In this document: in pieces, positions 56,420 to 60,807 of the stretch
Layout: each line of letters starts with the position of its first letter
How positions within the stretch are numbered: the first letter of the stretch is position 1
Assembly: GCF_033100135.1 (NCBI RefSeq)
Contig: NZ_CP136920.1
Coordinates: 4,149,001 to 4,213,000, forward strand
Reading direction: 5' to 3'
DNA: 64,000 nucleotides
From: Rubellicoccus peritrichatus
GTDB taxonomy: Bacteria; Verrucomicrobiota; Verrucomicrobiia; Opitutales; Cerasicoccaceae
The notes under the pieces: model-generated
Database searches by the model: none
What the model saw: the letters and a program-made list of their open reading frames with translations, nothing else
Told to the model about the DNA's origin: nothing
Made by a program: the position numbers and the translations under genes

Positions 56420-57907
56420 TCAATGTCCTGATGTAAAGACTGTGAGGAAAAAGCCGGCAACCAATGCAGTGCCAATTACTCCGGCAACATTAGGCCCCAT
56501 TGCATGCATCAAAAGAAAGTTGCCTGGATCAGCCTTCTGACCTTCCACCTGACTGACACGAGCAGCCATCGGCACGGCGCTGACTCCTGCAGAACCTATA
56601 AGTGGGTTAATCTTCTGCTTCGAAACGGCATTCATTACTTTTGCCATGATGACACCGGCCCCAGTCGCAAGGCAGAATGCCAATACACCGAGAACCATAA
56701 TGCCCAATGTTTCTGCACGTAAAAAGCGATCCCCGGTCATCGTGATTCCGACACTGGAACCGAGAAATATAGTGATTATATTGATGAGCTCATTCTGCGC
56801 AGCTTTGCTCAAACGATCGACCACCTTACATTCACGGAGAAAGTTGCCAAACATCAGCATACCGATTAATGGTGATGCCGGTGGCACAAGCAAAACACAG
56901 GTAATCGTAACAATCACTGCGAATATTAGCTTTTCTATACGACTTACCGGACGTAAACTTTTCATCCGAATCCGGCGCTCCTTTTCTGTTGTGAGCAAGC
57001 GCATGATAGGTGGCTGGAGTACCGGAACCAATGCCATGTAGCTGTAAGCTGATACCGCAATTGGAGCCAGTAATTCCGGTGCAAGTGAATTGGCCAAAAA
57101 GATCGAAGTGGGCCCATCCGCACCTCCGATAATGCCGATTGCACCAGATGCCTGGGCACTAAACCCAAATAACTGCGCACCAATAAAAGTCCCAAAGACT
57201 CCAAACTGAGCTGCTGCCCCCAATAGTAACACGCGGGGATTTGCAATGAGCGGCCCGAAGTCAGTTAAAGCACCAACTCCGAGAAATATTAGTGGAGGAA
57301 AGATTTCCAGAATCACACCAAGCTGAATGTAGTGAAACAAGCCACCACTGTGCTCACTGTGGAGCTCAGCCAAAGGCTCCCCCTTGAAGACTCTTTCCCC
57401 AATAGCGACATCAACGGAAACAACTCGCCCATCTGCTTCGGCCCAAACAAGTATATCTGATTTACGTAAGCTTGTCTGTGCAATTGCATCTGTTTCATTA
57501 GTTGTATCCGGACGGACAATAAAAAGCAGGGATCGTGCTCCAAATCCCTCGACTGCTTCACCATTAAGTAAGCGCGATAAAATTTCCTGATCCAGGTCCC
57601 CAACTGTAGTGGGCATAACACGCTCTACGGCATTCAACCGAACCGGATCGCCTTCCTGTACAACGGCAAAAACGACTTCTCCATTCACCGGACTCCGCAA
57701 TACACTTGCCGGCTTGTTGATGATACCCTCTGTCGGCAGGTTGGCCAACATGGCACCGAATGCAATTGGCACTAACAGCAAAGGTTCAAACTTTCTGTAA
57801 ACTGCCAAGTAAAGGAGAACACCTACCACGACCCACATCGCCAGCATGCGCCAGTCGAGATGGCTGAAACCTGTGTTCTCATAAAGGCGCTGTAGAAGAT
57901 CGGCCAT
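56420..57907 (-). CDS. mmdB: Na+-translocating decarboxylase beta subunit with an internal barrel-sandwich-like insert
   Basis: Membrane subunit (495 residues) of the sodium pump of OadB/MmdB type; couples decarboxylation of the biotin-bound carboxyl group to Na+ export. Conserved channel segments: VGALTDFGPLIANP (Asp Na+ ligand), IIGGADGPTSIFL, NELINIITIFLGSSVG, and GSAGVSAVPMAARV. Between the first membrane segments, residues about 62-188 form an unusual hydrophilic insert with two half-motifs, SPVNGEVVFAVVQEGDPVR and ILVWAEADGRVVSVDVAIGE, like a biotinyl/HlyD barrel sandwich without a biotin Lys. Other beta subunits I recall have a shorter, unrelated segment there. Confidence 0.92.
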   Translation of the reverse strand: MADLLQRLYENTGFSHLDWRMLAMWVVVGVLLYLAVYRKFEPLLLVPIAFGAMLANLPTEGIINKPASVLRSPVNGEVVFAVVQEGDPVRLNAVERVMPTTVGDLDQEILSRLLNGEAVEGFGARSLLFIVRPDTTNETDAIAQTSLRKSDILVWAEADGRVVSVDVAIGERVFKGEPLAELHSEHSGGLFHYIQLGVILEIFPPLIFLGVGALTDFGPLIANPRVLLLGAAAQFGVFGTFIGAQLFGFSAQASGAIGIIGGADGPTSIFLANSLAPELLAPIAVSAYSYMALVPVLQPPIMRLLTTEKERRIRMKSLRPVSRIEKLIFAVIVTITCVLLVPPASPLIGMLMFGNFLRECKVVDRLSKAAQNELINIITIFLGSSVGITMTGDRFLRAETLGIMVLGVLAFCLATGAGVIMAKVMNAVSKQKINPLIGSAGVSAVPMAARVSQVEGQKADPGNFLLMHAMGPNVAGVIGTALVAGFFLTVFTSGH

Positions 57908-57915
57908 TGTAGAAC

Positions 57916-58305
57916 CTACGCAATGGTGATAAGTGACTGTCCCTCTTCCACAGAGCTGCCAACTGAAACATGAATTGCCTCAACCTTCCCTGCTTGCGGA
58001 GAAGAAACGAGTGTATTCATCTTCATCGCTTCAAGCGTGAAAACCTTCTGCCCTTCCTCAACGGTATCACCAACTGCAACATCGATCGATATCACGACCG
58101 CAGCCAATGGGCTCTTTACATCACCGTCACCCCCAGCAGCTGGTTTCGGAGCAGCGGCTGGTTTTGGAACTGCGATAGGTTCGGAGACACGTGTGCTACT
58201 TGCTGGCACACGAGGCTGTGGAATCGGTGACGCGGTGCCTTCATCCAGAAGTTCCACTTCAACGTCGTAAGACTTACCTTCTACAGTAATACGTAAGCGT
58301 TTCAT
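57916..58305 (-). CDS. mmdC: Biotin carboxyl-carrier subunit of the decarboxylase
   Basis: A 129-residue biotin carrier. The attachment motif EAMKMNT has the biotinyl-Lys at position 95, in the standard location about 35 residues from the C-terminus. A Pro/Ala-rich flexible linker (residues 26-58) joins it to a short N-terminal region, KRLRITVEGKSYDVEVELL, as in MmdC-type carriers. It carries the carboxyl group from the carboxyltransferase to the membrane beta subunit. It lies 8 bp upstream of the beta subunit gene. Confidence 0.95.
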   Translation of the reverse strand: MKRLRITVEGKSYDVEVELLDEGTASPIPQPRVPASSTRVSEPIAVPKPAAAPKPAAGGDGDVKSPLAAVVISIDVAVGDTVEEGQKVFTLEAMKMNTLVSSPQAGKVEAIHVSVGSSVEEGQSLITIA

Positions 58306-58338: not shown

Positions 58339-58770
58339 CTACCTCACTCTATGTGATGAAAAAATTTGACGACGTCCCTCTTGAGCCCATCCTGGGCCAC
58401 CTGGGCGGATTGACACAATACGATGCGGGCGATCTTTTAACATCGTGTAAACAGCGGCACTGATTACGGCTGCTACTTCGGGATCTTCAACCTCTGCGGT
58501 TTCTTTGTCATCCCTGGCAGCAATCATCTGACTGTTGGTTTCCGCAATCGACTTTGTAGATTCTGCAGTTTTCTCAAGATTTCGTGACACCTTAACCAGG
58601 TCGGCAGCAGCTTTTTTTACGAAGAAAGCGCCAAATATTGCAGTCACTGCTGCAATCAAAGCCAAGACGACCATAACAAAGAGAAAGCCAATCACAACGA
58701 TACCAAACAGCTCAGGTGATTCAGTATTCGTTACAGTATCTACCGATGCGATGTTTCCTATATAACTCAT
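58339..58770 (-). CDS. mmdD: Decarboxylase gamma/delta subunit (OadG-like)
   Basis: A 143-residue subunit with one membrane helix (LFGIVVIGFLFVMVVLALIAAVTAIFGAFF, residues 21-50), a charged helix, and a C-terminal motif EVAAVISAAVYTMLKDRPHRIVSI that matches OadG/MmdD. It is thought to assemble the carboxyltransferase with the membrane subunit and often binds a metal through the C-terminal part. Order and spacing with neighbours support the role: carboxyltransferase, then this, then biotin carrier, then beta subunit. Divergent sequence is normal in this family. Confidence 0.88.
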   Translation of the reverse strand: MSYIGNIASVDTVTNTESPELFGIVVIGFLFVMVVLALIAAVTAIFGAFFVKKAAADLVKVSRNLEKTAESTKSIAETNSQMIAARDDKETAEVEDPEVAAVISAAVYTMLKDRPHRIVSIRPGGPGWAQEGRRQIFSSHRVR

Positions 58771-58806: not shown

Positions 58807-60357
<1,551 letters not shown>

Positions 60358-60405: not shown

Positions 60406-60807
60406 CTACTTTTCCTGACAAAACTCGGTCAGAACACCATGCGTCGATTTTGGATGCAGAAATGCAACAAGCTTATTCGCAGCCCCTTCGAAAGGAACTT
60501 CATGGATCAAGCGAACCCCGGCCTCAGAAGCTTTAGCCAGTTGACCCCCAATATCATCGGTATGGAAAGCAATGTGGTGGATCCCCTCTCCGCTCTTCTC
60601 AAGGAATTTGGCGATCGGACTATCAGGAGCAGTCGGCTCCAGTAATTCGATATGCACATCTCCTGCCTCAAAAAAAGCCGTCCTGACTTTTTGTGAGGCG
60701 ACTTCCTCACGACCATGACAATGCAAACCGAGCGCGTTTTCGTAGTATTTAACGGTTTCGTCAAGGTCCTGAACCGCAATCCCAAGGTGATCTATTTTAG
60801 TAATCAT
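60406..60807 (-). CDS. mce: Methylmalonyl-CoA epimerase
   Basis: A 133-residue VOC-fold protein interconverting (R)- and (S)-methylmalonyl-CoA. Metal ligands are visible: His in IDHLGIAV, Glu in HIELLEP, His in GIHHIAFH and Glu in LTEFCQE. AGGAG (60821-60817) precedes the start. It is first in the decarboxylase operon and 137 bp from the divergent mutase genes, linking mutase (R product) to decarboxylase (S substrate). Confidence 0.94.
   Translation of the reverse strand: MITKIDHLGIAVQDLDETVKYYENALGLHCHGREEVASQKVRTAFFEAGDVHIELLEPTAPDSPIAKFLEKSGEGIHHIAFHTDDIGGQLAKASEAGVRLIHEVPFEGAANKLVAFLHPKSTHGVLTEFCQEK

Follow-up and report, generated by a model that had tools for sequence, protein, structure and literature searches.

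A biotinyl-type insert in the beta subunit of a putative verrucomicrobial decarboxylase sodium pump

What is a folded domain of about 120 residues doing between two membrane helices of the Na+-transporting subunit of a decarboxylase pump? This question is raised by a 64,000-nucleotide stretch of the Rubellicoccus peritrichatus genome (hereafter the window), in which a first-pass annotation made from the letters alone had noted an insert in a pump beta subunit, with two halves resembling those of biotinyl/lipoyl domains. The annotation proposed that the insert docks the biotin carrier protein or forms an arm beside the channel. Here we computed the predicted fold of the insert, its insertion site, its missing lysine motif, its restricted distribution among sampled genomes and the constraint on its sequence. 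The pump type is known, and the clade-restricted version of its beta subunit that bears the insert is new; we found no description of such an insert in the open-access literature searched, as judged by titles and the starts of abstracts.

A putative sodium pump with an enlarged beta subunit

The 495-residue product of the beta gene scores 505.5 bits against PF03977 (OAD_beta, cut-off 31.6) and 496.3 bits against TIGR01109 (cut-off 190.6), passing both curated cut-offs across the full profile, which places it in the OAD_beta family. On the minus strand, the cluster runs from an epimerase gene through MmdA-like, OAD_gamma-like, biotin carrier and beta genes to genes for an acyl-CoA transferase and MeaB, and the alpha, beta, carrier and small membrane subunits are encoded together, as judged by gene order and Pfam matches (Table 1). 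The acyl-CoA transferase passes the NCBIfam cut-offs for butyryl-CoA:acetate and succinate CoA transferases, and a methylmalonyl-CoA mutase-like gene adjoins the cluster on the plus strand. The same order from epimerase to CoA transferase is present in two public loci, L112 and L113, the first of which also has a MeaB-like frame (open reading frame lists, with genes named by likeness).

The MmdA- and MmdC-like proteins score below their NCBIfam cut-offs (Table 1), so the substrate was instead read from neighbouring genes: the epimerase, the mutase-like gene and MeaB nearby lead us to infer that it is methylmalonyl-CoA. Judged by sequence, the window genes encode a putative methylmalonyl-CoA decarboxylase Na+ pump in which Na+ transport is putatively coupled to decarboxylation. 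An OadABG pump is listed for a verrucomicrobial isolate in one report (PMC13274419).

The small membrane subunit, whose OAD_gamma score is weak, ends in a tail, WAQEGRRQIFSSHRVR, that is nearly identical in L112, L113 and L203. This tail is perhaps a docking peptide for the carboxyltransferase.

Table 1 Features of the beta subunit and of the neighbouring pump genes
Feature	Coordinates	Strand	Basis or remark
Beta subunit (carboxybiotin decarboxylase/Na+ transport) of decarboxylase sodium pump, 495 residues	56420..57907	-	PF03977, TIGR01109, AlphaFold2 model
Second barrel-sandwich half, residues 152–184	57356..57454	-	Model strands 152–155, 160–165, 178–183
Strand and hairpin, residues 126–151, at the position of the biotinyl Met-Lys-Met hairpin	57455..57532	-	Acceptor Lys motif absent; model strand 127–133
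Extra excursion, residues 92–124, with short helix 107–114	57536..57634	-	Mostly missing in compact relatives L083, L084, L102
First barrel-sandwich half, residues 67–91	57635..57709	-	Model strands 68–71, 76–81
Inserted domain, residues 62–188, between helices T2 and T3′	57344..57724	-	Translation, alignments, model
Helices T3′ and T3, residues 190–214, then Thr215-Asp216	57266..57340	-	Thr215-Asp216 = Salmonella Thr148-Asp149, cytoplasmic face
Helix T2, residues 42–55, with Glu41 just before	57743..57784	-	Glu41 = Salmonella Glu40, cytoplasmic face
Biotin carrier subunit, MmdC-like, EAMKM motif	57916..58305	-	PF00364 64.5 bits; NF047903 65.8 bits, cut-off 200 not reached
Small membrane subunit, OAD_gamma/MmdD-like	58339..58770	-	PF04277 29.1 bits, cut-off 27; TIGR01195 17.1 bits, below 36.05
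Carboxyltransferase (MmdA-like) subunit	58807..60357	-	PF01039 584.9 bits; TIGR01117 729.9 bits, cut-off 998.8 not reached
Methylmalonyl-CoA epimerase, upstream of pump genes	60406..60807	-	TIGR03081 153.9 bits, cut-off 114.95

The insert is predicted to share the fold of biotin carriers

The insert lies where the first-pass annotation had put it, and both motifs quoted there are present. An AlphaFold2 model of the insert alone, built on five aligned inserts (window and L112–L115; mean pLDDT 80.8), consisted mostly of strands with one short helix. A full-length model from 33 sequences, five of which carry the insert, has a pLDDT of 86.8 and a pTM of 0.77. In this model the insert contains six strands and a single short helix (Table 1), and in both models it is mainly beta rather than helical or disordered.

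Foldseek searches with the insert-alone model return carrier domains of biotin enzymes as the best solved matches (8xl3, E = 4.5e-04; 5gu8, E = 8.7e-04), which are the only two of 547 matches that reach E ≤ 0.001 and have TM-scores of 0.47–0.50 over the query. The predicted fold is shared over all 70 residues of the gamma subunit of Pyrococcus horikoshi methylmalonyl-CoA decarboxylase (2d5d), with 31–33% identity in the structural alignments; VIA-align gives Z = 10.1 and an rmsd of 1.6 for the insert-alone model, and Z = 10.5 and an rmsd of 1.5 for residues 67–183 of the full-length model. These models describe the insert as a predicted barrel-sandwich hybrid of two pseudo-repeats, of the biotinyl/lipoyl type, as the annotation had anticipated.

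The insert also departs from the carrier. It has no Met-Lys-Met acceptor and is larger by an excursion of 33 residues and by a lengthened hairpin at the expected Met-Lys-Met tip; unlike 2d5d, it sits within a membrane protein on what is probably its periplasmic face. Three relatives (L083, L084 and L102) do without most of the excursion and have a length closer to that of an ordinary carrier domain. A loose acceptor-motif pattern that fits all 28 carriers examined does not occur in the window insert, which bears out the earlier observation that the biotin-accepting lysine is missing. Among the 28 homologous inserts, the pattern is found in six, always ahead of the hairpin and never in it. By this lysine test, the insert is biotinyl-like and not a carrier.

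The annotation had also likened the insert to HlyD. Like the window insert, HlyD/MacA adaptors have two separated barrel-sandwich halves and are periplasmic, the side assigned to the insert by homology. However, these adaptors carry a long helical hairpin between the halves, where the window insert has only an eight-residue helix, and the insert, at 21.7 and 21.6 bits, stays below the HlyD_3 cut-off of 22.2. The fold matches include 4l8j, BesA (4kku) and EmrA (4tko), but biotin carriers rank higher. The biotinyl half of the comparison stands, and membership in the HlyD family was rejected on the score and the missing hairpin.

Could the resemblance be a chance motif match? For the window, Pfam evidence is marginal: PF00364 scores 22.8 bits against the insert alone and 17.8 bits within the whole protein, with a cut-off of 22.1. 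The wider set consists of 28 inserts selected visually on the motif from 32 loops of at least 70 residues (L049, L050, L051 and L091 were left out because the motif is absent, and the window replaced L001). PF00364 matches 22 of these at E ≤ 0.01 (best 4.2e-08), Biotin_lipoyl_2 matches 14, HlyD_D23 matches 10 and HlyD_3 matches 9. By contrast, biotinyl/lipoyl and HlyD families match none of 38 control loops of at least 45 residues that were cut by a motif script from the same site where the domain is absent; two of these match unrelated families.

A hidden Markov model built from the 28 carriers gives 23.2 bits for the window insert and 9.4 to 28.1 bits across the 28 inserts. Among the 38 other loops no score exceeds 4.5 bits, and the best of 2,000 shuffles of the window insert reaches 9.6 bits, a value that the weakest insert, L074, does not surpass. 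A profile of the inserts run against PDB sequences has near its top MacA (4dk1, 1.7e-05, the best match), a Bacillus biotin/lipoyl attachment protein (3.1e-05), the transcarboxylase 1.3S subunit (1e-04) and Pyrococcus MmdC (1.5e-04), with a few unrelated proteins among the best 60 of 80 matches. Sequence, profile and fold evidence agree, negative controls included, and the sequence comparisons indicate that the biotinyl resemblance exceeds chance. A chance match in a helical or disordered insert is thus extremely improbable, even with the marginal Pfam score and the position of L074 in its favour.

The insertion site and probable membrane side

The only beta-subunit sequence with a solved structure that we found is that of Salmonella oxaloacetate decarboxylase (OAD; two entries). 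Residues 14–493 of the full-length window model superimpose on 6IWW chain A with Z = 46.1 and an rmsd of 3.4 over 387 residues, indicating the same transporter fold. The structure report describes an extra solvent-exposed and poorly conserved domain E between T2 and T3′ (PMC7274780), and our alignments and model place the window insert at this same site. The two segments differ in kind: domain E is a roughly 60-residue segment of four helices, whereas the window insert is a predicted barrel-sandwich hybrid.

Membrane side was assigned by homology. Query residues 5–64 align to Salmonella chain residues 4–63, so that E41 corresponds to Glu40, and a second aligned stretch sets T215-D216 on Thr148-Asp149. 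These three Salmonella residues are among the cytoplasmic-face residues surveyed in that report (PMC7274780). With cytoplasmic positions just before T2 and just after T3, the loop between them, and with it the insert, should be periplasmic.

This assignment bears directly on the two roles suggested by the annotation. Docking of the biotin carrier, or mimicry of the carrier at the decarboxylation site, draws on the shared fold, since hhalign aligns the inserts with 14 verrucomicrobial carriers at probability 97.6 with 24% identity over 72 columns. By the Salmonella homology (PMC7274780), however, an insert between T2 and T3′ would lie in the periplasm, across the membrane from the carrier and the cavity that binds it. 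The similarity is also hardly specific to the clade: profile–profile scores against the inserts are 67.1 for verrucomicrobial and 60.8 for clostridial carriers, and BLASTP gives no alignment between the compact-form insert of L115 and its own carrier. We consider docking or mimicry very unlikely. The other suggestion, an arm beside the channel, survives only as a periplasmic element on scaffold helices.

The trimer contacts of Salmonella OAD indicate where such an element would sit. According to the same report, T1 and T2 touch the neighbouring monomer at the outer trimer interface, T3′ and T3 lie towards the centre, T3′ is at the inner interface and lines a central cavity that opens to the periplasm, and helix α-E4 makes a minor trimer contact (PMC7274780). 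Because T2 belongs to the outer interface and T3′ to the inner one, a trimer formed as in Salmonella would hold three copies of the insert above the trimer interface.

Loops between T2 and T3′ range from 37 to 196 residues in a non-random sample of 157 distinct loops. The domain is present in 29 (117–196 residues between motifs) and absent from 128 (37–171 residues), of which 76 have fewer than 60 residues, 25 have 60–99, and 27 have 100–171 but are unrelated. The annotation had described a shorter, unrelated segment at this position in other beta subunits, which is right for most of those examined. Beta subunits of several phyla decorate the site with unrelated segments, and insertions seem to be frequent there in more than one phylum, as at a hot spot.

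Several clostridial beta subunits (L117, L118, L120, L121, L127–L129, L132, L133, L136, L137 and L142) have unrelated loops of roughly 110–165 residues at this site. Clostridial long loops looked promising as further instances of the domain, but those read are unrelated and the ones scanned match no biotinyl family. Two more lineage-specific loop types, Akkermansia-like (L049, L050, L116 and L122; 128–132 residues) and Opitutaceae-like (L052, L053, L055, L056, L139, L145 and L174; 69–88 residues), are likewise unlike the barrel-sandwich insert. The Akkermansia and Opitutaceae loops were considered as candidate eroded versions of the insert; the scanned ones have no match to a biotinyl family, although the tree of beta cores puts them near domain-bearing rows, if not firmly.

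Distribution and sequence constraint

In the genomes sampled, the barrel-sandwich insert is largely confined to a single verrucomicrobial branch. All 10 genomes examined from the window's family have it. Within the order (Opitutales/Puniceicoccales), a profile search matches 27 of 132 sampled genomes at E ≤ 1e-6; one match (G100) is a different, 261-residue frame, leaving 26, and G366, whose compact-form locus L102 is missed at this threshold, was added by reading, for a final count of 27 of 132. For comparison, 55 of the 132 genomes encode a beta subunit above the Pfam cut-off. The search of the class gives 50 matching genomes among 384: 12 reach E ≤ 5e-35, of which G636 alone is from outside the order, and the other 38 have only weak matches (E ≥ 3e-06), some being carrier-size frames that adjoin the beta gene, as in G344. 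Across the phylum, seven of 288 genomes have the insert, besides the G100 match. Loops were labelled as having the domain by reading, with which the profile search agrees except for L102 in G366; among the public loci, L176 was left out and some others were read over their first 200 residues.

Phyla other than Verrucomicrobiota were sampled through a public genome scan, in which at least four of the best 80 loci carry the insert: L112 (Opitutia UBA7441), L113 (Cerasicoccus frondis), L114 (Puniceicoccaceae Marseille-Q1082) and L115 (an Opitutales metagenome-assembled genome). Over their final 440 residues, the beta frames of L113 and L006, the latter from the window's family, agree. Most beta subunits examined are without the domain; the refuting outcome named in the annotation, the same insert in most OadB proteins, did not arise.

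In another order of the class, the G636 locus (L203, C13:27788-28222) carries this insert next to MmdA-, MmdD- and MmdC-like frames. This copy was possibly acquired by gene transfer.

The insert is constrained in sequence, although less so than the core. Of 12 close pairs, nine allowed dN/dS to be computed for the insert, and in these it is 0.13–0.35, compared with 0.035–0.083 for the core; synonymous sites are near saturation (pS 0.49–0.71 in inserts), which makes these ratios rough. The insert diverges roughly two to five times faster than the core.

These data bear on a reading in which the insert is a lineage-specific decoration of a tolerant loop, still folded and with no dedicated function. 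Its faster divergence and the unrelated segments of 37–171 residues in the same loop of the 128 sequences without the domain fit such a decoration. Ratios of dN/dS well under 1 do not, nor does retention of the domain in every examined genome of the family and of the long form in both beta copies of the three f75 genomes in which the two copies were read (G307, L098/L104; G321, L099/L103; G360, L094/L100). On balance we regard mere decoration as unlikely.

A possible structural role for the insert

We know of no role for the T2–T3′ site beyond the minor trimer contact of α-E4 in Salmonella. Relatives in the same order have loops of 40–50 residues, so pumping as such can probably proceed without the domain. 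A folded, clade-restricted domain on the probable outer face offers a handle on the function of this site.

The explanation that we favour, with some reservation, is that a degenerate biotinyl/lipoyl-type barrel-sandwich domain, its attachment lysine gone, was grafted into the T2–T3′ loop, where it would project on the periplasmic side and brace or cap the beta trimer. Its job would be structural: the domain may brace or cap the static scaffold trimer from the outer side as the elevator core transports Na+. Counting against this explanation are the short loops of relatives, the faster divergence of the insert, its Pfam score in the whole protein, the two Foldseek matches at E ≤ 0.001 and the five insert-bearing rows in the full-length alignment. 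The bracing or capping function, taken by itself, is more tentative, although it stands first in plausibility, followed jointly by a partner-binding lobe and by decoration.

A partner-binding lobe would bind an envelope component, either a periplasmic protein or peptidoglycan, and anchor the pump in the manner of membrane-fusion proteins. It gains from MacA being the best sequence match and from the adaptors among the fold matches, and loses from the ranking of biotin carriers over adaptors by fold and from the absence of a candidate partner gene in the pump gene cluster. Such anchoring is, like decoration, an unlikely alternative to a brace or cap.

With a brace or cap, as with any role on the periplasmic side, a biotin-carrier fold would be present in a biotin-dependent pump on the face opposite to the biotin chemistry, an unusual re-use of a fold. 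Lineage-specific insertion of a barrel-sandwich-type domain into a conserved host has a precedent in the HABAS (hammerhead/barrel-sandwich hybrid) insertions of RNA polymerase β′, which concern a soluble host and another domain type, and for which the abstract draws no link to biotin enzymes (PMC11515920).

Origin of the domain

A recent duplication of the adjacent carrier gene would be a possible source of the insert but is not supported. Verrucomicrobial carriers score only slightly above clostridial ones, and BLASTP of the window insert against its own carrier yields fragments (best E = 7e-04, in a single comparison), with none in L115. A more elaborate proposal is that the membrane subunit took up a biotinyl carrier domain of the pump's enzyme family, which then lost its lysine and came to serve on the opposite membrane side as a trimeric cap, gating or buffering the release of Na+. 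We hold this to be improbable; if true, a single fold would serve both faces of one pump.

A quick tree of 92 beta cores, with the loop removed and rows thinned by hand, requires at least three changes in the presence of the domain, but its firmly supported branches force only one; several forks are open, and a long-branch warning applies elsewhere in the tree. A single origin with later losses is therefore possible. The window groups with L013, L014, L015 and L112 (support 99).

In the same tree, three alphaproteobacterial beta subunits with short loops (L124, L130 and L138, from Rhodospirillum and Tropicimonas) fall within the verrucomicrobial group with modest support, a placement that suggests gene transfer.
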